Under the pieces are notes generated by a model. That model made no database searches, was not told where the DNA came from, and saw only the letters and a list, made by a program, of their open reading frames with translations. Positions 5,110-30,557 of a DNA stretch of 36,976 nucleotides are shown one piece after another. Position numbers and translations under genes: made by a program. The stretch is from a virus. The stretch's first letter is position 1; every line of letters starts with the position of its first letter. The stretch spans positions 1-36,976 of the IMG/VR virus record IMGVR_UViG_3300037493_007452; one strand, written 5' to 3'.

Positions 5110-5206
5110 GGCGCTGGAGATTATTTTGATAGGGATATTCCTCATCGTGGCGCTGGCTGCGCTGGGGGTTTTGTTTTTGATGGCGATTCCCGGGGGGCGA
5201 TTTTGA
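5096..5206 (+). CDS. Small single-pass membrane peptide, 36 aa
   Basis: This short ORF encodes two Trp and a basic patch (MWWRKALE), then one hydrophobic helix of about 22 residues (IILIGIFLIVALAALGVLFLMA) and the tail IPGGRF. The composition is typical of a real transmembrane segment and unlike the purine-rich noise in this genome. It overlaps the gene at 4912. GGAGG lies 10 bases before the start. The function is unknown. Confidence 0.45.
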   Translation: MWWRKALEIILIGIFLIVALAALGVLFLMAIPGGRF

Positions 5207-5211
5207 GGATT

Positions 5212-5241
5212 GAAGGACCAAAGGGACATAAAGGACATAAA
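5212..5241 (+). repeat. Family A start cassette before the transposase
   Basis: Three units (GGACCAAAG, GGACATAAA, GGACATAAA) end directly at ATG 5242. AAAGGA at five to six bases from the ATG is the likely ribosome-binding site. Confidence 0.75.
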
Positions 5242-6924
5242 ATGATCAGTGAGAGCGTATTACAGGAAGTGGCGCAGCGGGTGGACGGGTACGCAGGGGC
5301 GGAGAGACGGGAGATCATCCAGGGTCAGGCGGCGCTCCTGGGCGTGTCGGAGAAGATGCTATACAGGAAGCTCCGGGAGAATGGTATGGGAAGCGGGCGT
5401 AAGTCCAGGAGCGACAGCGGGGGTCTGCGCGTGGGCGTGAGCGAGGCGCAATTGGAGAGCGTGGCGTCTCTCATCCTGGAGTCCTGGACGGAGAAATACA
5501 GGACGCCATCCATGCCCGCCTGGACGGCGATCCAGATGGCGGAACGGATGGGGATCATCCCGGAGGGGATATTAATACCTGGGACGCTGACGCGATGGAT
5601 GCGGAGGAATAATCTGGGGAAGCAGGAACTGGCATCGCCGACGCCGCATGTGAGCATGATGAGCGCACACCCGAATGAGATGCATCAGTATGATGTGTCG
5701 GTGTGCCTGCAGTGGTATATCGATGAGGCTGGGGGGATCGGGCATCAGAGAAGGAATATGGACGTGTACAAAAATAAGGCGGGACATGGGAGACAAATTA
5801 AAAGGCATTTGATCGTGGATCATTTTTCGGGGGCTTTTTACGTGGCTTATGCGGAGAGTGAGGATACTGCCACGAGTCTGGAGTTTTTGTTTGAGAGCTG
5901 GGGAGGGAAAGGGACCAAAGGGACGGAAGGGACGAAAGGGACATATATATTTAGGGGAGTACCGAAAAGACTTTATACTGATAATGGGAGTGTGATCCGG
6001 AGCGCGATCGGACAGCAGGTGTGCGGGAGGCTGGGGATTGACCTGGGGGCGCATCTGCCGGGTTCGCCGAGGGCGAAGGGATCCGTGGAGAGCATGATGT
6101 GGAAGTGGGAATGCGCATTTGAGAGCCAGCTGCGACGCTTCCCGGCGCGGAGTTTGGAGGAACTGAATCAGAGGGCGTTTGAATATGCGATGTGGTACAA
6201 TTCAGAGAGGATACATACGCGTCATGGGATGTCGCGATTTGCGGCGTGGTCGCGGATCACGCCTGAGCAATTGAGAGAGCTGCCGGAGGACCGGGCGCTG
6301 TTGAGGAGCCTGGCGATGAGGGCGGATGAGGAGCGCGTGATCGATTACGCGGGGCGGATCCGGTACGATGGGAGGCTGTACGCTGTTCCGGATCAGGGGC
6401 TGTGGGGGAAGAAGTGCTGTGTGGGGCCTGACATTTGGTGTAATGGGGGTCAGACCCGCTTCGCAGTGTCTGACCCCAGCCTGTCGATCGTGGTGGAGTG
6501 TGAGGGGAAGAAATTTACGCTGGGGGCGCTGAAGGTGGATGATATGGGATTTACAGAGGGGGCAGTGGCGTGGGGAGAGTACCGAAGTCCCAGGGAGACG
6601 GGGACGGAACGGGCTGTGAAAGAGATCGCGTCGGTGACGCCCGGGGAGATGGAGATGAAGCCGCTGAAAATAAAGGACGAAAATGACGTAAGGGACATAA
6701 GTGGGAGAGAGATAGAGATAAGAGAAAATATTGTGGAGAGAACATATACCAGGATCCAGGCGAAGCAGGAGGTGGCGCGGCGGCTGGGGTATTCTCCGGA
6801 GGCGTGGATGCTGGCGCTGATGGATCAGAGATGGGTCGATAAAAAGGAGGTGAGCGCAGGGGATATAGACGATCTGATGCTGGGGTGCATGGGGGATCGT
6901 CGGCATGATGTCGCGATAATCTAA
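5242..6924 (+). CDS. Mu-like DDE transposase (MuA-type)
   Basis: This is the 560-aa transposase for integration and replicative transposition. An N-terminal helix-turn-helix (about aa 15-50, ALLGVSEKMLYRKLREN) precedes an rve/RNase H-fold core with Asp151 (QYDVSV), Asp247 (YTDNGS) and Glu283 (KGSVES). The last two are separated by 35 residues, the classic DD35E spacing. A Mu-type C-terminal beta-barrel (about aa 365-440) and an end region (KQEVARRLGY) that may contact the ATPase follow. It lies just upstream of the MuB-like gene, as in Mu. Three repeat elements sit in frame: family A at 5906-5945 and at about 6671-6705, and a REP-like palindrome at 6446-6477. I chose ATG 5242 because the family A cassette ends there; the upstream extension is only translated repeat. 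Confidence 0.92.
   Translation: MISESVLQEVAQRVDGYAGAERREIIQGQAALLGVSEKMLYRKLRENGMGSGRKSRSDSGGLRVGVSEAQLESVASLILESWTEKYRTPSMPAWTAIQMAERMGIIPEGILIPGTLTRWMRRNNLGKQELASPTPHVSMMSAHPNEMHQYDVSVCLQWYIDEAGGIGHQRRNMDVYKNKAGHGRQIKRHLIVDHFSGAFYVAYAESEDTATSLEFLFESWGGKGTKGTEGTKGTYIFRGVPKRLYTDNGSVIRSAIGQQVCGRLGIDLGAHLPGSPRAKGSVESMMWKWECAFESQLRRFPARSLEELNQRAFEYAMWYNSERIHTRHGMSRFAAWSRITPEQLRELPEDRALLRSLAMRADEERVIDYAGRIRYDGRLYAVPDQGLWGKKCCVGPDIWCNGGQTRFAVSDPSLSIVVECEGKKFTLGALKVDDMGFTEGAVAWGEYRSPRETGTERAVKEIASVTPGEMEMKPLKIKDENDVRDISGREIEIRENIVERTYTRIQAKQEVARRLGYSPEAWMLALMDQRWVDKKEVSAGDIDDLMLGCMGDRRHDVAII
5906..5945 (+). repeat. Family A repeat inserted in the transposase catalytic domain
   Basis: Four units give GKGTKGTEGTKGT at about aa 222-235, between Asp151 and Asp247, in a loop of the RNase H fold. 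Confidence 0.75.
6446..6477 (+). repeat. REP-like palindrome, copy 1 (inside transposase)
   Basis: Perfect 10-bp arms GGGGTCAGAC (6446-6455) and GTCTGACCCC (6468-6477) flank CCGCTTCGCAGT. They are read as GGQTRFAVSDPS in the C-terminal barrel. A near-identical copy lies at 27163-27195. The form resembles REP elements mobilised by Y1 (RAYT) transposases; none is encoded here. Confidence 0.8.
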
Positions 6925-6940: not shown

Positions 6941-8152
6941 ATGAAAACTAATACGAGGGTTATAGAGTTCGACCGGTATGGTCGAGATGTGAAATTGGTG
7001 GAAGGGGGGACGCGTAAATTGGCGCCGAATTGCAGTAAGGTAGAACGAGAATTGACGGAGGAACTGGTATCCTGGATGCAGAGGCGGGCGGTGAGTTATA
7101 ACGCGGTTGGCAGGCTGTTGGGAATCGGGCGGAGCACGGCGCACGCCATGCTGCATTATGGGTACTGGCCTACGCGGGTACCGCGGGAGCAATTGACTAA
7201 AAAAATCAAGTCCGCGATTGCGGAGTTGAAAAAATCCATTTTAATAACCACCAGGGATGAGGTGGTAAGGGAGGTAGATATCATGGAAAACGTGGGTATA
7301 GGGGCGCAGAGGCGTTTTGGGTTGAGGTGGGATCCATTTTTAAATGAGATCCACGGAGTGAGCGATATTTATCCGATGAAAGAGGCGGAGGACGCGCTGG
7401 AGTATATGAAGCGGATCGCGTTATTCCAGGGCTTTGGCGCGCTGGTTGGCGAGGTCGGTACGGGGAAGACGCTGCTGTTGCGGAAGCTGGAAGAACAACT
7501 GGCGAGTGATCATGTGCGATTTGTCCAGGTGAGAAATACGGATAAGGTGAATTTGAAGCCACGGCATATCCTGGAGACGATAGTTTTCGATCTGACGGGT
7601 ACGCCGCACGGGGGGGGGAAAAGCATGGAACAGATGTCGCGGATCGTGCGGGGGCTGCTGGCGGATGCGGAGAAGGAGGATCAGCGGGTGTGCCTGGTGA
7701 TCGATGATGCGCAGCAGATTCCGCGCGTGACGCTGCGGAGTCTGAAGCAGCTTTACGATTTGGACAAGGGATTTCGGCGGAGCCTGGGCATTCTCCTCCT
7801 GGGTCAGTTGGAGCTGTTAGAGGCGATGCGGGATCCGCGCTTGAGGGAGACGACAAACCGTTGCGGATATATGCTGATGCAGGGACTGGCGCAGCCAAAG
7901 ACGTTCGAGGGATATCTGAAATTTAAACTGGAGCGGGCTGGCGGGGATTTTGAAAAGATCGTGGATCCGGGATGCATGAAAGAGATCAGGATGCATGCGA
8001 CCGTCTCCTGGGACTGGTGCGGGGAACGCTATCAGATGGCGCCGGAACTGAGGGTACAGAACCTCATGGCCCGGCTGCTGAATACGGCGGACCGGTTGGG
8101 GGAAGCTCGGATTACGCGGGAGATCGTGGATGTGGCGCTGGGGCAGAAGTAA
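6941..8152 (+). CDS. MuB-like AAA+ ATPase, transposition target selector
   Basis: In Mu, MuB binds DNA with ATP, delivers target DNA to the transposase and gives target immunity. This 403-aa protein has the MuB layout. An N-terminal helix-turn-helix lies at about aa 48-74 (VSYNAVGRLLGIGRSTAHAM). An AAA domain follows with Walker A G170-EVGTGKT-177 and Walker B CLVIDDAQQ (Asp255, Asp256), then an ExeA/AAA_22-like sensor region (LGILLLGQLELLEAMRD). A small C-terminal helical domain ends the protein. It is longer than Mu's MuB (312 aa). GGGGTTGGGG precedes ATG 6941, 16 bases after the transposase stop. Confidence 0.88.
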   Translation: MKTNTRVIEFDRYGRDVKLVEGGTRKLAPNCSKVERELTEELVSWMQRRAVSYNAVGRLLGIGRSTAHAMLHYGYWPTRVPREQLTKKIKSAIAELKKSILITTRDEVVREVDIMENVGIGAQRRFGLRWDPFLNEIHGVSDIYPMKEAEDALEYMKRIALFQGFGALVGEVGTGKTLLLRKLEEQLASDHVRFVQVRNTDKVNLKPRHILETIVFDLTGTPHGGGKSMEQMSRIVRGLLADAEKEDQRVCLVIDDAQQIPRVTLRSLKQLYDLDKGFRRSLGILLLGQLELLEAMRDPRLRETTNRCGYMLMQGLAQPKTFEGYLKFKLERAGGDFEKIVDPGCMKEIRMHATVSWDWCGERYQMAPELRVQNLMARLLNTADRLGEARITREIVDVALGQK

Positions 8153-9650: not shown

Positions 9651-10046
9651 ATGGATGCTAAACAGACATACAGGAGCGCGAGGCAGGAGGCGATCAGGAA
9701 GGCGCTGATCGCCAAGCTGCATGTGCTGGCGTCCCAGGCGGGGCTGGATGATGCGGGGATGTATGAGGCGTTGAACGCGGCGGCGAAGGCGAAGCAGATC
9801 CTCATGTATCCCTATAACTGGAAGGGGCGCGGGGAGAAGAGCCGCGTGGGGATCAGTACGCTGAAGATTTGGCAACTGAGGCAGGCGCTGAGGATTTTTG
9901 AAAGGGACCAAAGGGACCAAAGAGACCAAAAGGACGAAAAGGACATAAAAACATCAGACGCTCACTCTGCGCAGGATGGGGCGAAGGTGGTGGAGTTTGA
10001 GGAGTGGAAATCGAATAAGGGGGGAAAAAATGCAGATGCCAGTTGA
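9651..10046 (+). CDS. GemA/gp16-like regulatory protein (DUF1018-like)
   Basis: The first 85 residues (QEAIRKALIAKLHVLASQAG, DDAGMYEALNAAAKAKQILM, STLKIWQLRQALRIF) have the pattern of DUF1018/GemA proteins, which sit after DUF3164 in Mu-like genomes and in Mu alter host gene expression. The next 20 residues (DQRDQRDQKDEKDIK) are a translated family A repeat, and a short tail follows. The start has no strong ribosome-binding site. The 3' end overlaps the next gene by 17 bases. Confidence 0.5.
   Translation: MDAKQTYRSARQEAIRKALIAKLHVLASQAGLDDAGMYEALNAAAKAKQILMYPYNWKGRGEKSRVGISTLKIWQLRQALRIFERDQRDQRDQKDEKDIKTSDAHSAQDGAKVVEFEEWKSNKGGKNADAS
9900..9948 (+). repeat. Family A 9-base repeat array, coding
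   Basis: Five units (GGGACCAAA-like) are read as RDQ RDQ RDQ KDE KDI in the GemA-like protein. Confidence 0.75.
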
Positions 10047-10749: not shown

Positions 10750-11469
10750 ATGCGGAGAATATTCGAGAATTCAGAGGAATTATGTAGATATCTCGCTGAG
10801 CGAGATGACCGCGTGATACTCTCCTTTTCCCTCGGAAAGGATAGTATAGTAGCGTGGTTGCAACTGAGGAAATATTTTAAAAGGATATATCCGGTATATT
10901 TATATACTATACCGGATTTAGAATTTATAAATGAGGGGATCAAATATTTCGAGAAATATTTTAGGGCTGATATTATTCAGATTCCGCACCCATCGTTGTA
11001 CAGGATGCTTAATAATCTATTATTTCAGACGCCTGAGCGGTGTCATATCATCGAGGGATCGAAACTTAAGGGATATAATTATGATCAGGCATTTGATGAA
11101 GTTAAACGGCATTTAGAAATACCGGCAGATGTATTTGTAGCATTGGGGACGCGGCGTTGTGATTCGCTCGTACGCATGATATCGATAAAAAAATGGGGTG
11201 CGCTGAATCCGAAGCGAAAAACATTCATGCCGATTTTTGATTGGAACTCGGAAGATATATTTAAGAGCATCGAGTCGGCGGGGATTGAATTACCGATTGA
11301 TTATAAATTATTCGGAAGGTCTTTTGATGGGATAGATTACAGATATTTAAAGCCGATCATGCGTGAGTTGCCCAGGGATTATGAGCGGATTCTGAAATGG
11401 TTTCCGCTGGTTGAATTAGAGATCAAGCGGCAGGAATGGAGGATCGAGCATTATGGGAAGCATATTTGA
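10750..11469 (+). CDS. Phosphoadenosine phosphosulfate (PAPS) reductase family protein
   Basis: The 239-aa protein has the PP-loop ATP-pyrophosphatase motif near the N-terminus (VILSFSLGKDS, aa 22-32), with one Gly of the usual SGGKDS replaced by Leu. It is followed by a CysH-like fold (GTRRCDSLVRM, PIFDWNSEDIFKSIESAGI). Phage members of this family are widespread. Some act in nucleotide or tRNA modification, or in DNA phosphorothioation like DndC, rather than sulfate assimilation; the substrate cannot be told here. Lower GC and fewer G runs than its neighbours suggest separate acquisition. AAAAGGAGAGTATC precedes the ATG. It overlaps the next gene by 17 bases. Confidence 0.8.
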   Translation: MRRIFENSEELCRYLAERDDRVILSFSLGKDSIVAWLQLRKYFKRIYPVYLYTIPDLEFINEGIKYFEKYFRADIIQIPHPSLYRMLNNLLFQTPERCHIIEGSKLKGYNYDQAFDEVKRHLEIPADVFVALGTRRCDSLVRMISIKKWGALNPKRKTFMPIFDWNSEDIFKSIESAGIELPIDYKLFGRSFDGIDYRYLKPIMRELPRDYERILKWFPLVELEIKRQEWRIEHYGKHI

Positions 11470-15287: not shown

Positions 15288-15818
15288 ATGAAGGCGGGGG
15301 CACATGGATATGAGTATAATCCGGACTTTATGCGAGAGGCGTTTGCGCTATATTGCAATGGAGTATCCGGTACGCAGATCGTCGTGCGCATGCAGAAGGA
15401 GTGGCCAAACGTATGCAGGCAGACGGTTTGCCGGATCATAAACAAGCACGGTTGGGAAAAAGCCCGGGCGAAATTTATAGAGTTACAGAGAGATGGTGTA
15501 GGGGAACGTGAAAAGGCGATTGAGGTTTTGTTAAAAACTCAGGAGCGGTTGGAGGAATTAGTCCCGAACAGTGAGAATCATCAGCATTTTGCGCAGCTGA
15601 TGAGGTGTATAGAATTAAGGGCGAAGCTGATGGGTTGGATGGATGTAGGTGAAGACGGGATCGTGATGAGCAACGATCTGGAGATGAATGCGTACCTGGA
15701 CGCACTGGAGGAGGTTCTGGGGGATGCGCTGACGAAGGCGAAGAGGCAGATAAAGAGGGTGTATGAAGAGAAAATGAAAGGGACCAAAGGGACGAAAGAG
15801 ACCAAAGGGACAGAATGA
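15288..15818 (+). CDS. terS: Terminase small subunit-like protein
   Basis: The 176-aa protein has an N-terminal helix-turn-helix (FMREAFALYCNGVSGTQIVV, RMQKEWPNVCRQTVCRIINK) and a helical oligomerisation region (EKAIEVLLKTQERLEELVP, HFAQLMRCIELRAKLMGWMD). It sits immediately before the large terminase, so it should select phage DNA for headful packaging. The C-terminal KGTKGTKETKGTE is a translated family A repeat that also forms the start signal of the next gene. Stop and start overlap (ATGA). Confidence 0.75.
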   Translation: MKAGAHGYEYNPDFMREAFALYCNGVSGTQIVVRMQKEWPNVCRQTVCRIINKHGWEKARAKFIELQRDGVGEREKAIEVLLKTQERLEELVPNSENHQHFAQLMRCIELRAKLMGWMDVGEDGIVMSNDLEMNAYLDALEEVLGDALTKAKRQIKRVYEEKMKGTKGTKETKGTE

Positions 15819-17460: not shown

Positions 17461-19685
17461 AGAAGGGAATAATACCGATAGTGCGGGGGTGGCTGTTTGG
17501 GGAACCCACGGCGGATGCGGCGGAGAAGCGCAAGCCGGATCTGGCGGAGGTAGCGGGGGATAAACGCGAGGCGCTGATGGGCTGGATCTCCAGCGATCAG
17601 GAGTATTATCTGATTGACGATCCGACTCTGGAGGCGGCGGGGACATCGGCATTTTCCACGACATACGAGTTGTATAAGGATATGATGATCAAGTGGCCGC
17701 ACCTCAGGCACACGATCAAGAAGCGGAAGAACGCGGTGATCGGGCGGGAGATCCTACTCAATGCCAGGAGCGAGGATGCTAAGGATGTGGAGGTTGCGGA
17801 GTTTTGCAGGGAGATGATCCAGGGGATATCGAAGTTTAAAGACGATTTGAAGGAGATGCTGGACTCGTTGTATTATGGGTTTGCGGTGAGTGAGCTAATG
17901 TGGGGGAATGGGAAGAATGGGAGTAATGGGAATTATGGGGGATGGGGAGTAGAGGAGTTGAGGCAGAGGGATCAGGCGAGGTTCAGATTCAGGCTGGAGG
18001 ATCGGGCGCTGTGCCTGGATATGGATGGGGCGCGGTCAACCTTTGCGCCGGTGGAGCCGAATAAGTTTGTCGTGATGCAGTACGACATGGTGAACGAGAA
18101 TCCCTACGGTCAGGGGGAAGGGAGATATAATTACTGGTTTTATTATTTTTTCAAGAACTCGGTGAAGTTCTGGAGCATATTCACGGAGAAGTTTTCAATG
18201 CCGACGGCCGTGGGGAAGTATCCGCCAGGATCGCAGCAGACGGAAAAGGACAAATTGCTGACGGCGATCAAGGCATTGCAATCCGATCAGGGGATTACGA
18301 TGCCGGACAACATGACGGTGGAACTGTTGGAGGCGCAGAGGGCGGGGACGCTGGATTGCTATGAGAGTTTTATTCGGTACCTGGAATTATCGGTGAGCAA
18401 GAACATCCTGGGGGCGACGCTTACGAGCGATGAGGGGATACATGGGACGCGGTCGCAGGCGGAGGTGCATGAGGATTCGAAGTTCGAGGTGACGGAGAGC
18501 GATTGCGCGAGCCTGGCGGGGATCATCCAGGATCAGATATTAAAGCCGGTGGTACTGTATAATTACGGGGAGGGCGTGCGTGAGCCGCAGGTGGAGTTCG
18601 ATCTGGAGGAGGACGAGGATCTTTTGCAGCGGGCGCAGACGGATGAGATCCTGGTGCGGATCGGGGTTCCGCTGGGGAAGGAGTATTTTTATGAGACTTA
18701 CGGGAGACCTGTACCCAAAGAGGAAAGTGTGAAGAGTGAAGGGGGAAGTTTGAAAGAAGAGGAGGGGAAGGAGAAGGAAAAGGACCAAAGGGACAAAAAG
18801 GACGAAAGGGAGGAGGATGGGAAGTTTAAAGAGGGAAGTTTGGAGGGCGGGGATGAGCGGAAGATTGCGGCGAGATGGGAATTGGATGAGGGGAGGTTTG
18901 TGGCGAATGCGGTGAACCGGGGGAAGAAGTTTTATTTTGGTTTGATGAAATGGATTCGGGAGGCGGTGGAGACTGCGGAGGATGAGGGGCAGGTGTATGG
19001 ATTGAATGGGGAATTGGCGGAGCGTGAGACGCAGGCTCTGGCAAATTACCTGACGAGCGTGCTGTTTACGGCATGGGGGAATGGGGCGGGAGAGATAGAG
19101 AGAATGCGGGGAAGGGACGTAAAGGACGAAAGGGACATAAGGGGGTTTGCGGAAAATATCGAGTATGTGTTTGAGGGGCTGACGCCACAGGAGGCGATTG
19201 ATTATCTGGAGGCTTTACTGCCAATGACCCGGGAGGAACTGGAGTGGAAACTGCTGGAGATGAGAAGCCACGCTTTTACGGTGGCGGATATCCAGCGGAA
19301 GGATGTGATCGAGAAAATCCAGGATCGTTTGACGAAGGCGCTGGCGGAGGGGCGGACGTTTGGGGACTGGAAGGCTGGGATCGGGGAGATGTTCCAGGCG
19401 GAGGGGGTGGCGCCGCTGAACGATTTCAGATTGCAGACGATCTTCCAGACGAATATCCACCGGGCGCTGGTGGCGGGGCGGGATCGGATGTGCGAGGATC
19501 TGCAGAGGGAAGGGATATTGCAGTATGGGAAATGGCAGAGTGTGGGGGATTCGCGGGTGCGGGATAGCCATGAGGCTATGGAGGGGGCAGTGATGAGATG
19601 GGATGATCCGCGATGGGAGAAGATGAAGGATTATAATTGCCGGTGCCAGAAGGTGCCCGTCTTCGGGATTGGGAAAAGGACGTAA
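17418..19685 (+). CDS. Portal protein (DUF935, Mu gp29-like) fused to MuF-type head morphogenesis protein (gp30-like)
   Basis: This 755-aa protein joins two proteins that are separate in Mu. Residues about 40-430 are the DUF935 portal (LYKDMMIKWPHLRHTIKKRK, FVVMQYDMVNENPYGQG, NILGATLTSDEGIHGTRSQA, QRAQTDEILVRIGVPLGKEY). Residues about 480-755 hold the MuF minor-head region, ending in the standard QTIFQTNIHRALVAGRDRM, VRDSHEAMEGAV and YNCRCQKVPVF signature. Between them is a Lys/Glu/Asp-rich linker (about aa 434-476) that contains a family A repeat (KDQRDKKDERE). A family B repeat (GNGKNGSNGNYGG) lies at about aa 160-174. I chose ATG 17418 because AAGGGGGG at 17400 is well spaced from it; ATG 17409 is possible. 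Confidence 0.85.
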   Translation: MGRMRDMGNIGRIREKGIIPIVRGWLFGEPTADAAEKRKPDLAEVAGDKREALMGWISSDQEYYLIDDPTLEAAGTSAFSTTYELYKDMMIKWPHLRHTIKKRKNAVIGREILLNARSEDAKDVEVAEFCREMIQGISKFKDDLKEMLDSLYYGFAVSELMWGNGKNGSNGNYGGWGVEELRQRDQARFRFRLEDRALCLDMDGARSTFAPVEPNKFVVMQYDMVNENPYGQGEGRYNYWFYYFFKNSVKFWSIFTEKFSMPTAVGKYPPGSQQTEKDKLLTAIKALQSDQGITMPDNMTVELLEAQRAGTLDCYESFIRYLELSVSKNILGATLTSDEGIHGTRSQAEVHEDSKFEVTESDCASLAGIIQDQILKPVVLYNYGEGVREPQVEFDLEEDEDLLQRAQTDEILVRIGVPLGKEYFYETYGRPVPKEESVKSEGGSLKEEEGKEKEKDQRDKKDEREEDGKFKEGSLEGGDERKIAARWELDEGRFVANAVNRGKKFYFGLMKWIREAVETAEDEGQVYGLNGELAERETQALANYLTSVLFTAWGNGAGEIERMRGRDVKDERDIRGFAENIEYVFEGLTPQEAIDYLEALLPMTREELEWKLLEMRSHAFTVADIQRKDVIEKIQDRLTKALAEGRTFGDWKAGIGEMFQAEGVAPLNDFRLQTIFQTNIHRALVAGRDRMCEDLQREGILQYGKWQSVGDSRVRDSHEAMEGAVMRWDDPRWEKMKDYNCRCQKVPVFGIGKRT
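17893..17942 (+). repeat. Family B 9-base repeat array in the portal gene
   Basis: Five units read in frame as NGK NGS NGN Y between two conserved portal segments. Confidence 0.7.
18778..18812 (+). repeat. Family A repeat in the portal-MuF linker
   Basis: Three units read as RDQ/RDK/KDE exactly at the junction between portal and MuF domains. A second in-frame family A stretch lies at about 19110-19140 (GRDVKDERDI). Confidence 0.75.
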
Positions 19686-22771: not shown

Positions 22772-24646
22772 ATGATGGGAGGCATGGGAATGATGAGAAT
22801 AATGGGAATTATGATGGTGATAATGATAATCGCCGTGTATGCGGGGGCGACGACTAATACGCTGACGATTATCAATGTGGAGGGGTATGATACTCCTGTG
22901 CCTGCTGCGGGGGATCATGAGTACACGTCGGGAACGATTGTGAATGCGTATATGACGGATGTTGTGGTGGAGGATCAGGGATCGACTTGCACGTGCACGG
23001 GATACCTCGGAGAGGGCGCGCTGGGAAATGACAGCGCGACAAGCGTGACATTTGCCCTGGATGAGGATACAACTATAACATGGCAATGGAGCTGCGAGAC
23101 GCCGACACCTACGCCGACTCCAACACCTACACCTACGGAGACGCCTACACCGACACCCACAGACACGCCGACACCGACACCCACGGAGACACCAACACCA
23201 ACGCCGACACCGACACCCACGCCCACCCCGACACCGACACCGACAGCGACGCCGAGTACTGGATACTGGATAAGCGGGGCTGGAACTGAGGGTATGAATG
23301 GATTATATTGCTGGAGCGGGGATGATTATAATGGATGCGCGTATTATTCCCAGAGCGGAGGGAATGGGCAAATAAGATATGAGGGAGTTGATGTATGGGT
23401 AATCTGCGACCTGGGGGTTTCGCAATATGAGTTGACGGCGCTGGAGGTGGCGTGCGAGACGTATCTCACGACCGATACCTGGGTAACGAGCGGAGGCGCT
23501 GAACCTGCGCCGCTGGTGGAGGATTGGGATTGTAATGATCCGACTCCCACACCAACACCGACTCCCACAGACACGCCGACACCGACTCCCACGGAGACAC
23601 CAACACCAACACCGACGCCGACACCGACGGAGACGCCTACGCCGACACCTACACCGACTCCCACGCCCACGCCCACGGACACTCCGACGCCGACACCAAC
23701 GCCCACGCCGACGCCGACAGCGACTCCGATTACGGTAAGCGGGACTATCCAGAGCGCGATTGATAGCGTAGTCGGAGCCGGGACTGGAGTGATTATAACT
23801 GCGCCAGCCGGGACGTATGCGGAGAATATCAATTTCAGGGGGAAGAATATAACTTTACAGAGCGCGGATCCGACAAGCGCTGGAGCTGTTGCGGCGACTA
23901 TTATTGACGGAAATGACCTGGGCGCATGCGTGACGTTTGCGGGGACTGAGACGGGAGCGGTTTTGGACGGCTTTACCATCACGGATGGTCGCGGGACGAG
24001 TAACAAGGGCGGAGGCATACACGGGGCGGGAGCGACAGGGACTGTGAGGAGATGTGTGATCCATGCGTGCGAGGCTGTGGGATCGGGGGCTGGCGGCGGG
24101 ATGCGGGATTTTGACGGCACGATCCAGGATAATACGATCTATGATAATACAGCGGGCATGAGCGGAGGGGGGCTGGCGCTATGCGATGGGACGATCACGA
24201 GTAATACGATCGAGAGCAATACTGCGCTGATGGGGGGCGGGCTGGCATATTGCGGAGGGACTATACAATATAATCTGATAGCGGAGAACAGCGCGGATAC
24301 TGATGAGCCGTGGCGCGGACACGGCGGGGGGCTGTTCGAATGCGACGGGACGATCAACCATAATACCATCGTGATGAACAAGGCGCAGTATGGCGGAGGT
24401 CTGAGCCGGTGCAACGGGACGATCAAAAACTCTATCATCTGGTGGAATAGCGCGGATAACTGGTTTGATTACCAGGTGGGAGATTGCGCGACCATCACGT
24501 ATAGCATAGTGATGAACCGGACGGAGGGAACGGGGAGCATACAGGATGCGCCGGAGTTTACGTCCTGGGAGACCGGGGACTGGAGCCTGGCGAGCGGGAG
24601 TCCGGGAGAAGCGGCGGGAGATGATGGGGAGAGTATGGGAAAATGA
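22772..24646 (+). CDS. Secreted modular beta-helix surface protein with Pro-Thr linkers (cargo)
   Basis: The 624-aa protein has a signal-peptide-like start ([16 protein letters not shown], cleavage near aa 24-26). An InlB-like 'bacterial repeat' domain follows (about aa 30-108; [28 protein letters not shown]-like, [12 protein letters not shown]). Next come a Pro-Thr linker (aa 109-160), a small Cys-containing domain (aa 165-255), a second linker (aa 256-319) and a right-handed parallel beta-helix (aa 325-600). The beta-helix opens [20 protein letters not shown] and has [20 protein letters not shown]-type repeats. Such proteins are bacterial surface or adhesin types, not virion proteins. It interrupts the normal head-to-tail gene order. 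Lysogenic conversion is a reasonable guess; a tail-associated role is possible. Confidence 0.8.
23100..23253 (+). repeat. Pro-Thr linker tandem repeat 1
   Basis: Imperfect six-base units (CCGACA/CCTACG) encode alternating Pro-Thr with Glu/Asp-Thr interruptions. The antisense frames give spurious Val-Gly ORFs. Confidence 0.9.
23540..23728 (+). repeat. Pro-Thr linker tandem repeat 2
   Basis: Same unit type and pattern as the linker at 23100. It precedes the beta-helix domain. Slippage or unequal exchange between the two tracts could delete the Cys-containing domain between them. Confidence 0.9.
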
Positions 24647-25724: not shown

Positions 25725-26522
25725 ATGGGTGGAGTAACAACTTTTACGGCGAATATAGTTTGCGGGGCGCATGATATCCTATGGACGCCGACGGGCGGGA
25801 CGCAGATGAATTTGGGATCGACCAAGGAAGGCAGCGTGCTGCATATCGAGAAGACAGTGTTTGATCGGACGGTACATCGGTATGGGAAAACGTCGTATGA
25901 GGTGCGGAGCACGGAGTGGCGAACCTGGCTGGAGGCGATCCTGCTGCAACGGACGTATGAAAATATGGAGATGCTCCTGGACGGGATTATGACGAACGAC
26001 ACGACTGCCGGGGCGACGGATACGCTGAACGGGGGGATCGATGCTGATGATACGATCATCACGCTGACGGATATTACGGGATTCACGGAGCCGGGGAATC
26101 ATGGATTTGTGGTGAAGATTGGGACTGAGGAGATACTGGTTCGCGGAGTGGATGAAACAACAGACAAACTGGGGACAACGGCTCTGCCATGCGTGAGGGG
26201 ATATAACGGGACGACTGCTGCGAGCCATCTGACTGGCGTGACTGTGACGATGTGCGGGACGGTGATCGATACCGATCCGAGACCGAAGGCGCGGACGAAA
26301 GGGAGTCTGACGCTGCGACCTGTCGGGGAATCGGATGATACAAACGCGTGGACGATGTGGCAGGCGGAGATCCTGTCGAAATTCTCGCCCGCGCTGAAGG
26401 TGGATGAGGATCAGGGTTATGAGTGCGAGATCAAGGGCGTGTTAGAGGAGAGCGCTACTGGGAAAATCAGACTGCTGCGGCTTGGGAAGACAGATATATT
26501 GACGGATGAGTCGTGGTTTTAA
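25725..26522 (+). CDS. Tail tube protein paralogue 1 with inserted domain
   Basis: The 265-aa protein opens MGGVTTFTANIVCGAHDILW, then NLGSTKEGSVLHIEKTVFDR, and ends GKIRLLRLGKTDILT. These are features of tail-tube proteins ('LGategGv.f......v..d..G.tp.d....G' and a C-terminal 'r.lrfG.p'). It is aligned throughout with the next gene except for about 80 extra residues (aa 99-178), which form a separate module also found in the tail hub. It could be the minor tube protein with an exposed domain, as on some siphophage tails. Confidence 0.7.
   Translation: MGGVTTFTANIVCGAHDILWTPTGGTQMNLGSTKEGSVLHIEKTVFDRTVHRYGKTSYEVRSTEWRTWLEAILLQRTYENMEMLLDGIMTNDTTAGATDTLNGGIDADDTIITLTDITGFTEPGNHGFVVKIGTEEILVRGVDETTDKLGTTALPCVRGYNGTTAASHLTGVTVTMCGTVIDTDPRPKARTKGSLTLRPVGESDDTNAWTMWQAEILSKFSPALKVDEDQGYECEIKGVLEESATGKIRLLRLGKTDILTDESWF
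26019..26258 (+). other. Inserted tail module, copy 1
   Basis: The segment LNGGIDADDTIITLTDITGF ... IGTEEILVRGVDETTDKLGT, then CVRGYNGTTAASH, is absent from the paralogue at 26593. It is closely matched by hub residues 199-274 (IGSERILVRAIDAVNKTLGT ... CERGYGGTTAGAY). Confidence 0.75.
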
Positions 26523-27213: not shown

Positions 27214-27256
27214 GCGCCCTGGGTGGAGTGACCCTCGCCCAGGGCGCAAAGTTTTT
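27214..27256 (+). terminator. Hairpin after the tail-tube gene (terminator-like)
   Basis: Perfect 10-bp arms GCGCCCTGGG (27214-27223) and CCCAGGGCGC (27238-27247) are followed by AAAG and TTTTT. With the REP-like palindrome just upstream, it could end or stabilise the tube mRNA and lower expression of the chaperone and tape-measure genes. Confidence 0.6.
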
Positions 27257-27287
27257 AAAAGACCGAAATGACGAAAGGGACATAAAA

Positions 27288-27563
27288 ATGAATATTTTAA
27301 AGATCGATAAAGGGGATGTGATGTGCGGGATCGATTATAAGGGGCAGATTATCGAGATCGATCCCTTGGTGGATGTGCTGGAGTCCGCGAATGAGATGTT
27401 CAAAAATACCAAGGATGTCGATATGATCAAAAAGGGAATATTAATGATAGCTCCGGATTTTCCGGTGGCTGAGTTACGGGTATCTGAGGTGGTTCCGGTA
27501 CTGAAAGGGATCACGAAGGCGATCAAGGAATCCCTAAAAAACGAACAAAGCCCGGCGGTATAG
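27288..27563 (+). CDS. Tail assembly chaperone, short form (lambda gpG-like)
   Basis: The 91-aa protein (MNILKIDKGDVMCGIDYKGQ, then LVDVLESANEMFKNTKDVDM and a helical C-terminus) lies between tail tube and tape measure, where siphophages encode the short chaperone. Near its end is a -1 frameshift site (A AAA AAC at 27536-27542) that extends it into the following ORF. GGGACATAAAA precedes ATG 27288. Identification rests on position plus the frameshift signal. Confidence 0.75.
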   Translation: MNILKIDKGDVMCGIDYKGQIIEIDPLVDVLESANEMFKNTKDVDMIKKGILMIAPDFPVAELRVSEVVPVLKGITKAIKESLKNEQSPAV

Positions 27564-27576
27564 ATACTGTCGGGCT
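27536..27576 (+). promoter_or_regulatory. Programmed -1 ribosomal frameshift signal
   Basis: The slippery heptamer A AAA AAC (27536-27542) is in the correct phase (CTA AAA AAC). A 6-base spacer GAACAA follows, then a 12-bp hairpin with arms 27549-27560 and 27565-27576 (AGCCCGGCGGTA / TACTGTCGGGCT, two G-U pairs) and a TAGA loop. The zero-frame stop TAG lies in the loop. The -1 frame is open from the slip site through 27880. Confidence 0.88.
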
Positions 27577-27880
27577 GATGCGTTTCAGGGTGGCGGCGGC
27601 GCTGGGGGGGGGACTCTCGACATGGAGAAAGTTGGGAGAGATACCGTGGAGCGAGTTTGTGGAGTTGTGGGGGTATGCGCGGTACCAGGATAAATGCGAA
27701 GAGGCGAAGCTGGTGAATGCGGTACTCCTCCCCTGGGCGGAGAAGAACGAAAGAGGCAAGACGCTGAGAAAATTGCAGCAGGATCTGAAGGCGGTGGAGA
27801 GCGAGCGGGAGTTGGAGGAGAGGGAGAAGGCGCAAGGGAAAACAGAGAGGCTGAATGACAGAATAAATAAAGGGACGTAA
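27542..27880 (+). CDS. Tail assembly chaperone extension (gpGT-like, made by -1 frameshift)
   Basis: After slippage, reading continues in the -1 frame as RTKPGGIDTVGL, then MRFRVAAALGGGLSTWRKLG and EIPWSEFVELWGYARY, ending in an acidic/basic coiled helix. The fusion would be 197 aa, of which 85 come from the upstream ORF. 'RfRva.aLg.t...l...i...Ef.eW..y' is typical of the second chaperone ORF. An independent start at ATG 27578 is possible but has no clear ribosome-binding site. The chaperone pair is thought to hold the tape measure during tail assembly. Confidence 0.8.
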   Translation, partial: RTKPGGIDTVGLMRFRVAAALGGGLSTWRKLGEIPWSEFVELWGYARYQDKCEEAKLVNAVLLPWAEKNERGKTLRKLQQDLKAVESERELEEREKAQGKTERLNDRINKGT

Positions 27881-27903
27881 GGGACGAAAAGGACATAAGT
27901 GAT

Positions 27904-29820
27904 ATGGCGGAGAAGAAGGTAAAAATAGTAGCGGTGATCGATGGGGAGACTGGGGGATTTACGGAAGCGATCGCCACTGTCGAGAAAGAGACGCAGCGAT
28001 CGGCGGGCGTGATGGAGGGGATTTGGCAGGGGGTAGGTCAGCAGATCACCAGGGCGTTTGTGGATGTGGGGAAGTGGGCCGCGCGGCAATTGGTGGAGGG
28101 TGTGGGGTGGGTGAAGGATGAGATTGTGGGGGCGGTGGCGAATGCGGCGGAGTTCGAATCTGCGCTGGCGCAGGCGAGCACGAAGGGCGTTCAGGACATC
28201 GAGGCTTTACGCCAGGGGATTGTAGAGGTGGCGAATGAGATCGGGACTGATCTGGTGGCGCAAACAAATGCGTTCCAGGAGGCGCTGCGCCGAGGTGTTG
28301 GTGAGGATAATATTGTCGAGTTCATGACGACGGCGAACAAGCTGGCGGAAACATCGTCGATTGACCTGGGACTGGCGACCGAGGGTCTGATGGATACCAT
28401 AAATGCTTATGGGTATTCGACAGACCGAGCGGTCGAGATCGCGGATAAATTAATTACCAGTCAGCGGATCGGGAAATTAGAGGTAGGGGAACTGACCATG
28501 GCGCTGGGGCAACTCGCGCCCATGGCGAGCCAGGTCAACATGAGTTTTGACGAGTTGATGGCGACGATGGTCAAGGGGGCTGAGGCGGGGCTGAAACAAC
28601 GGGAGGTTGTCGGGGGACTGCGGGGAATATTGGAGGGGCTTTTAAAACCGACTGAACAACAGATACAATTATACAATCAGATGGGTTTGTCTATCGATGA
28701 CGTCGCGAATAAAATCCAGAGCGGAGGACTGATACAATTATTAGGGGAGCTGGGACCTGACGCAATGGAGAAGATGGCAGGGAGCGCGAGCGAGCTATCA
28801 TTGATGCTGGCGATCCTGGGTCAGGATGCGGGGGCATCGTTCCAGGAGGCGATGGGAGCGATTCAGAATAGCGCGGGGGCGATGGAGGCGGAGTTTGCGA
28901 AGGTCGAGAATACGACCATGGATCAGTGGGGTGATTTGATTGCGCGGATAAAAATATTAGGTACGGAGGCATTATCTCCGCTTAATGATTTATTGCGGCA
29001 GGTATTGGAGCGGGTGAATGCGAACCTGTCTGAGAAGTTCCCGGAGATCGGGGCTAATTTTAAGGAGGGATTGAATCGATGGCTGTGGGGCGGGGTGTCT
29101 GACGCCCAGGCAGCTGAGATCAATCAGATGGTTGCAGACGGGCGGATGAGCATGGAAGAGGCGATTGCAAAGACCTATAGCGGCGGCGTGGGGGATGCTA
29201 TTTTGAAAGTCGTAGATGAGTGGACAACGGGAGCGGGGAAAAGGATTCTCGCGGATCTGGAGGCGGTTTTTGCAGGAGATATGAGTTTCGGGGATATGCT
29301 GATTGGATGGATGTCGGATGGATGGGCGGTAATCAGGCCATACGTGATCAAGATCGGCGGAGAAATGGGAAAGTTTATGGCTAAGGCATTTGCTGAGGCG
29401 TTTCTGCCAGCGGTGCAGGATGTTGTAGGAGAGTTTTTGTATCAGCAATGGGAGGAATTTACGGCTCCAGGGGCGGGATTGACATATGCGAAGGAATGGA
29501 AGGGCCCGAGATGGACGGAATATTCCGAAGAGGATAGGAAGGCGTTGGGATTTCAGGGTGGCGGGATTGTGCCGGGGATCGGGAGCGGGGATATAGTGCC
29601 TGCGATGCTGGAGCCGGGGGAAATGGTGATACCGAGGGGGATGATGGGGAATGGGAATTATGGGAAGGATGGGAGTTATGGGGGGAATAAAACGTATAAT
29701 GTGACGATACGGGTGGATGGGGCGCGGGATCCGCGTGAGGTGGCGAAGGAGATAAAGAAGATTTTGAGAGATGAGGAGCGGATGGGGCGGGGGTATGGGA
29801 ATTGGGCGGTGGAGTATTAG
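27904..29820 (+). CDS. Tail tape measure protein
   Basis: The 638-aa protein is rich in Ala/Gly and helices, with a TP901-type core: FESALAQASTKGVQDIEALR, AETSSIDLGLATEGLMDTIN, LGQLAPMASQVNMSFDELMA, MVKGAEAGLKQREVVGGLRG. Amphipathic membrane-active segments follow. Its length sets tail length (roughly 0.15 nm per residue, so around 95 nm, by the general rule). A translated family B repeat (GNGNYGKDGSYGGN) lies at about aa 582-598, before a typical C-terminal NVTIRVDGARDPREVAKEIK. Confidence 0.87.
   Translation: MAEKKVKIVAVIDGETGGFTEAIATVEKETQRSAGVMEGIWQGVGQQITRAFVDVGKWAARQLVEGVGWVKDEIVGAVANAAEFESALAQASTKGVQDIEALRQGIVEVANEIGTDLVAQTNAFQEALRRGVGEDNIVEFMTTANKLAETSSIDLGLATEGLMDTINAYGYSTDRAVEIADKLITSQRIGKLEVGELTMALGQLAPMASQVNMSFDELMATMVKGAEAGLKQREVVGGLRGILEGLLKPTEQQIQLYNQMGLSIDDVANKIQSGGLIQLLGELGPDAMEKMAGSASELSLMLAILGQDAGASFQEAMGAIQNSAGAMEAEFAKVENTTMDQWGDLIARIKILGTEALSPLNDLLRQVLERVNANLSEKFPEIGANFKEGLNRWLWGGVSDAQAAEINQMVADGRMSMEEAIAKTYSGGVGDAILKVVDEWTTGAGKRILADLEAVFAGDMSFGDMLIGWMSDGWAVIRPYVIKIGGEMGKFMAKAFAEAFLPAVQDVVGEFLYQQWEEFTAPGAGLTYAKEWKGPRWTEYSEEDRKALGFQGGGIVPGIGSGDIVPAMLEPGEMVIPRGMMGNGNYGKDGSYGGNKTYNVTIRVDGARDPREVAKEIKKILRDEERMGRGYGNWAVEY
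29641..29690 (+). repeat. Family B repeat in the tape measure gene
   Basis: Five units in frame code for Gly-Asn/Lys-Asp/Tyr peptide shortly before the C-terminal domain. Confidence 0.7.
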
Positions 29821-29894: not shown

Positions 29895-30530
29895 ATGACG
29901 TGGGAATATTATTTTAAGCCGATAATTGCCCAGGGGGAAGGGGTGAAGAGGATTGGAAGCGGGGGAAGCCTGGGGATCGGGAGCGTGGATATCCCGGTGG
30001 CGACCGCGAGTAGTTATTTTACGCAAGGGGATCCGATATTCGTGACGGATGGGAGTCTGGGGAATGTGAGCTATTGCGGGCAGGCGTCGAGTGTGGATGC
30101 TGATAGCGTGACGGTGCCGCTTCCGACACGGGTGGCTTATGGGGCGCATTATGTGATCAAGCCTGCGGCGTGGGTTATCCTGGAGTGCGATTACAGCGCG
30201 ATGGAGATCGAGCGGGGTCTGGGTGTGGAGAATCTCAGGGCGTCGAGCGGGAAGATTTATCGGACACAGACGGGTGATCCTCAGAAAATTTGGAGGATTG
30301 TTTGGGAGGATCTGGGGATGACGTCGTGGGCGGCGGTGCGGACTTTTATCGAGAGCACGCTGAATTACGGGCTGGAGGATTTCACAGCGGCTTTCTGGGA
30401 TGATGTGGAGGCTGCGCAGGTTGTGGCTTGCGTGAGGCTGGTGCAGGAGGGGCTGCCGTTTCGCACCAGGGAGGATCAGGGGGGGGCGCTGGAGCTGGAG
30501 ATGGCGTATGTGAGCGGAAGTTATGAGTAA
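29895..30530 (+). CDS. Probable distal tail-type protein, 211 aa
   Basis: Placed directly after the tape measure gene, where siphophages encode the distal tail protein. The N-terminal half is beta-rich (GSVDIPVATASSYFTQGDPI, VDADSVTVPLPTRVAYGAHY); the second half has WVILECDYSAMEIERGLGVE and an EDFTAAFWDDVEAAQVVACV segment. I cannot name a domain with certainty. A family A stretch (29832-29860) and a family B unit precede ATG 29895. Confidence 0.55.
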   Translation: MTWEYYFKPIIAQGEGVKRIGSGGSLGIGSVDIPVATASSYFTQGDPIFVTDGSLGNVSYCGQASSVDADSVTVPLPTRVAYGAHYVIKPAAWVILECDYSAMEIERGLGVENLRASSGKIYRTQTGDPQKIWRIVWEDLGMTSWAAVRTFIESTLNYGLEDFTAAFWDDVEAAQVVACVRLVQEGLPFRTREDQGGALELEMAYVSGSYE

Positions 30531-30557
30531 GGGACCAAAGGGACATAAGGGACATAA
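30530..30557 (+). repeat. Family A start cassette before the hub gene
   Basis: Three units (GGGACCAAA, GGGACATAA, GGGACATAA) lie between TAA and ATG 30558. Confidence 0.75.

Follow-up and report, generated by a model that had tools for sequence, protein, structure and literature searches.

The window, an IMG/VR virus record of 36,976 bases, carries a MuA-like gene (5203-6924), a MuB-like gene (6941-8152) and further genes for portal/MuF-like, protease, capsid, adaptor, and neck or tail completion proteins, a set which together with the tail module indicates a Mu-like transposable phage. As no sheath gene was found among the genes searched, the tail is predicted to be long and non-contractile. 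The tape measure protein gene (27904-29820, plus strand) is recognised by PhageMin_Tail (PF10145, E 6e-23) and PHROG 991 (E 7e-39), and upstream of it a plus-strand gene at 26593-27156 matches PHROG 2175 (E 2e-10) and is called tail-tube-like from the gene order. Between the tail-tube-like genes and the tape measure gene, i.e. in the position of lambda G and T, lie two overlapping ORFs, the putative tail assembly chaperones with which we are concerned here. The tail-tube-like gene has a tandem paralogue at 25725-26522 (47% identical), in which an insert of about 75 residues gives weak matches to parts of tail and structural PHROGs; the two could supply long and short tube subunits. Elsewhere in the window, ORF 22772-24646, which belongs to PHROG 15511, a family without assigned function, contains long GACACC/CCGACA hexamer repeats (23098-23255 and 23539-23729) that encode a repetitive stretch, and the left half of the phage holds a phosphoadenosine phosphosulfate reductase-like gene (10750-11469, PHROG 2302).

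The upstream chaperone ORF, in the lambda G-like position, runs on the plus strand from ATG 27288 to TAG 27563 (91 aa), and its 3' end reads GAA TCC CTA AAA AAC GAA CAA AGC CCG GCG GTA TAG. This includes the slippery heptamer A AAA AAC (27536-27542), in which AAA (27537-27539) and AAC (27540-27542) are the zero-frame codons, the phase that tandem -1 slippage calls for. There follow the spacer GAACAA (27543-27548) and a putative stimulatory stem, whose 5' arm AGCCCGGCGGTA (27549-27560) and 3' arm TACTGTCGGGCT (27565-27576) form 12 pairs, two of them G-U, around a TAGA loop (27561-27564, UAGA in the RNA) that contains the zero-frame stop codon TAG (27561-27563). The spacer length of 6 nt is typical, as the general distance between a slip site and its downstream structure is 5-8 nt (PMC4066793). 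The RNA from 27536 to 27600 folds at -24.9 kcal/mol (z = -3.2), which one of 200 shuffles equalled. The -1 frame is free of stops from 27488 to the stop codon at 27878-27880 and translates as RTKPGGIDTVGLMRFRV..., so that a lambda T-like extension of 112 aa (27542-27880, plus strand) is available. The predicted fusion would comprise 85 + 112 = 197 aa and the predicted short product 91 aa. A previous sequence-only reading of this DNA had described the locus in the same terms, with an in-phase A AAA AAC, a 6-base spacer, a 12-bp hairpin holding the zero-frame stop in its loop, a -1 frame open into the next ORF and products of 91 and 197 aa; the heptamer (27536-27542), the spacer and hairpin (27543-27576), the open -1 frame (27488 to 27880) and both lengths, as predicted from the ORFs, were all found as described.

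In-phase heptamers (Y = A or T) occur in the large genes at 0.0027 per codon, a rate from which 0.065 slippery heptamers would be expected in the 76-nt overlap of the two frames (24 codons), or 0.077 if the zero-frame protein is held fixed and its codons are drawn by phage usage. When the -1 frame was recoded synonymously 5000 times, no recoding reached the -20.2 kcal/mol of the stem (median -8.1). Among 213 X_XXY_YYZ sites on both strands that are in phase and have at least 40 open codons upstream, the site at 27536 ranks second in the stability of its adjoining hairpin, and it is the only plus-strand site among them whose zero-frame stop is near, whose -1 extension is long and whose stem lies below -11 kcal/mol. 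A Shine-Dalgarno-like AAGGA at 27525-27529 was considered as an additional stimulator and dropped; it lies just 6 nt 5' of the heptamer, a shorter distance than in the dnaX case.

Codon-usage log-likelihood favours the zero frame until about 27540 and, between about 27585 and 27899, the -1 frame; no minus-strand frame scores well. The two ORFs might nevertheless be separate genes, the second starting by termination-reinitiation at the only ATG close to the beginning of the -1 ORF (27578-27580, plus strand) and the hairpin being either incidental or a coupling element. This ATG follows closely on the zero-frame stop (15 nt) and would open an ORF of 100 aa, but its Shine-Dalgarno pairing (-2.2 kcal/mol) is the weakest among 34 starts scored by anti-Shine-Dalgarno pairing. 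The genes to either side of it, the 91-aa ORF and the tape measure gene, have the AAGGGAC-type repeated leader of the phage in front of them, and a recognisable leader is present before most of its genes.

Further evidence on this point comes from a diverged relative, IMG/VR 3300028638_000037 (L040), the one true relative that the searches yielded, by a terminase scan of IMG/VR, and it is to this one record that conservation refers throughout. Gene order in L040 is the same as in the window, and identity is 55% for the terminase, 45% for the tape measure, 38% for the T part (counted from its first -1 codon; L040 18310-18645) and, in a global alignment, 32% for the G part. The L040 ORF homologous to the 91-aa ORF (18053-18340) again has A AAA AAC in phase (18304-18310), followed by a 6-nt spacer, GCATAC, which shares three of its six bases with GAACAA, and by a stem, AGCCCGGCGGC AGC GCCGTCGGGCT (18317-18341), of 11 bp with a 3-nt loop; the -1 extension is 112 codons. 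The 5' arms are identical at 10 of 11 positions (over the first eleven bases) and the 3' arms at 9 of 11. Pair 9 is G-U in the window and G-C in L040 and pair 11 is U-A and C-G, respectively, i.e. one consistent and one compensatory change by which pairing is kept or improved. The window's twelfth pair is unmatched in L040 because the loop there has lost a codon. The L040 stem, too, is far more stable than synonymous recodings, of which 0.04% match it, and the L040 fold has z = -4.0. The comparison with relatives that had been proposed from the sequence thus shows heptamer, spacer length and pairing retained in this one diverged relative. The position of the stop codon within the loop, which had been singled out as notable, is not conserved, as the zero-frame stop of L040 (TGA, 18341-18343) sits at the 3' foot of the stem.

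The T part is conserved from the first -1 codon onward as the peptide R..PGG...VGL..FRVA.ALGGG. In L040 the codon corresponding to ATG 27578 is ATA, and the earliest ATG, GTG or TTG of the -1 frame, at 18379, comes directly after the conserved RxxPGG...VGLxxFRVAxALGGG. Given that the conserved peptide precedes this first start, the L040 -1 frame has to be entered from upstream, and independent initiation cannot account for the conservation unless ATA, CTG or another rare start codon is used. With residues encoded upstream of any usual start codon conserved, and with heptamer, spacer and stem all kept in phase in L040, we regard two independently initiated genes as very unlikely.

The run of six A residues at the slip site (27536-27541) bears on two other explanations. 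The fusion could arise by transcriptional slippage on this run and not by the ribosome; RNA polymerase slippage, however, has no need of a codon phase, a 6-nt spacer or a paired stem, all of which L040 keeps, and six A residues are short for such a process, which makes this origin scarcely credible. Alternatively, as the run lies within a metagenome record, a sequencing or assembly error might have divided one gene into two frames, but the same frame change is found at the same heptamer in an independent, diverged record, and an error of this kind is extremely improbable. Programmed -1 ribosomal frameshifting, yielding a tail assembly chaperone pair of the lambda G/GT type, is very probably what the locus encodes, which supports the frameshift in a tail-chaperone gene pair put forward by the sequence-only reading.

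By this mechanism the majority of ribosomes would read 27288-27563 and produce the 91-aa G-like chaperone, while a minority, delayed by the 12-bp hairpin that begins after the 6-nt spacer, would move one base back on A AAA AAC and continue in the -1 frame to 27880, producing a GT-like fusion of 197 aa. If the parallel with lambda holds, coating of the tape measure protein would fall to the G part and recruitment of tail-tube subunits to the T part, and with such roles a low ratio of GT to G would be important for tail assembly. The slippage itself, its efficiency and the chaperone roles are what we infer from sequence and analogy. Heptamer, spacer and stem had all been called optimal; the spacer is indeed typical, but the heptamer is not optimal, A_AAA_AAC being of low efficiency in E. 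coli (PMC5009743, PMC4066793), yet used by IS elements (PMC4066793). In the phage's own host, slip efficiency would depend on the tRNA set. A weak heptamer combined with a strong stem may be a sensible route to the few per cent of slippage that tail chaperones need. The junction peptide that had been suggested for mass spectrometry, SLKN followed by RTKPGG, would be split by trypsin into SLK, NR and TKPGG..., and the useful tryptic peptide is instead TKPGGIDTVGLMR, which, apart from its final two residues (trypsin leaves the K-P bond intact), is encoded 5' of ATG 27578.

In the minimum-energy folds a further, outer helix is present, in which AAACG of the slip site (27539-27543) pairs with CGTTT (27581-27585) 3' of the main stem, and a comparable helix, AAACGC/GCGTTT, forms in L040 between 18307-18312 and 18346-18351, its 3' strand displaced by one base in the codon register. 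As this helix was noticed after the fact and in two sequences, it is a lead only, and we think it unlikely that the frameshift element of this little-known transposable phage group is larger than the hairpin and includes it. Were this so, the outer helix could mask the slip site, or make the ribosome pause before reaching it, and so tune the GT to G ratio on a weak heptamer. Further downstream in L040, a terminator-like element (18648-18676, GCGGCGG...CCGCCG followed by a T run) separates the T ORF from the tape measure gene; no counterpart of it was seen in the window.

Dispersed repeats of 9-nt period, of two kinds (AAGGGACNA and ATGGGAATN), are found in the window nearly always on the plus strand (GGGACNNAA occurs 48 times on the plus and once on the minus strand), for example at 1956-1997, 2223-2259, 5907-5942, 9901-9944, 15777-15811, 27256-27286, 27870-27899 and 30528-30557. 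They are frequently leaders placed right before start codons, and may carry ribosome-binding sites; they are also found within ORFs, such as that of MuA. L040 contains similar repeat arrays in different letters (ATGGACGGC, TGGACGAAA). A search with the intergenic repeat as an exact pattern gave no match.

The chaperone assignment of the two ORFs is made from their position, the predicted frameshift and the overall pattern. Neither ORF matched a named chaperone family in PHROGs, Pfam, NCBIfam or PDB sequences, and Rfam gave no match. The missing family match does not count as a failure, because low sequence similarity among chaperone ORFs is the rule (PMC5009743). Single-sequence structure models of the ORFs are of low confidence (mean pLDDT 57 and 64). 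No relative emerged from IMG/VR when the queries were the two ORFs, the tape measure, both tail-tube-like paralogues or the capsid, nor from GTDB genomes with the tape measure; a portal alignment retrieved just two distant portal matches in GTDB. Tblastn of both ORFs and the tail-tube-like protein in phages, and a terminase search in phages and plasmids, gave no match, and the portal alignment search returned distant Mu-like loci alone, which are without this tail module.

The mechanism, by which many tailed phages obtain a short and a long chaperone from a single message, has been known for decades, and the window adds another lambda G/GT-type case, with a strong, conserved stem behind a heptamer of low efficiency in E. 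coli. It leaves knowledge of phage tail assembly and recoding unchanged. The predicted frameshift joins two ORFs that annotation programs would list as two unknown genes, and makes them likely tail chaperones in a phage that has hardly any relatives in the databases.

An in-phase heptamer lies in the corresponding interval before the tape measure gene in nine of 11 further phages whose tape measure matches that of the window, namely GGGAAAC in R26L and Me-ZS1, CCCAAAC in a gut phage, AAAAAAG in Vibrio HC and Efs, GGGAAAG in TP901-1, AAAAAAC in CD1801 and phiFN37, and AAAAAAA in EauS-123; by the filter used, Cr-LKS3 and KarBoss have none. Among the Mu-like phages inspected, Mushu, which has a contractile tail, yielded none of these sites, and in D3112 none was convincing. 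In Dinoroseobacter phage R26L the chaperone gene before the tape measure ends with the GGGAAAC in phase (L012:5451-5457), and the -1 frame continues into the next gene; the two are annotated as separate genes, and this is probably an unannotated frameshift.

The sequence-only reading had also taken the site to be special among siphophages, a view the literature contradicts, as chaperone slippage on AAAAAAC is reported for phiCbK (PMC3556154), Loki (PMC5313236) and HCTV-2 (PMC5009743), and possibly for Dragolir (PMC6003738). In Caulobacter phage phiCbK (gp93/gp94, PMC3556154) an in-phase AAAAAAC is annotated as a programmed frameshift before the tape measure gene, as proposed for the window, but this is a large prolate siphophage and the downstream structure is weaker (-12.5 kcal/mol at 5 nt). 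The chaperone gene of Acinetobacter phage Loki (gp12/gp13, PMC5313236), annotated as joined, has AAAAAAC and, 8 nt behind it, a strong hairpin of -18.4 kcal/mol, so that even the combination seen in the window is not special; in Loki, unlike the window, the zero-frame stop comes right after the heptamer, and searches revealed no sequence similarity between the two. The lambda gpG/gpGT system (PMC5009743), included as a control, was recovered with its site GGGAAAG. It differs from the window in this heptamer, in its stem (-10.0 kcal/mol at 11 nt, against a strong hairpin at 6 nt) and in showing no detectable sequence similarity, but the organisation is alike, with overlapping ORFs between the tail tube and tape measure genes, an in-phase -1 heptamer shortly before the first ORF ends, and a short and a long product, which for the window are predicted.
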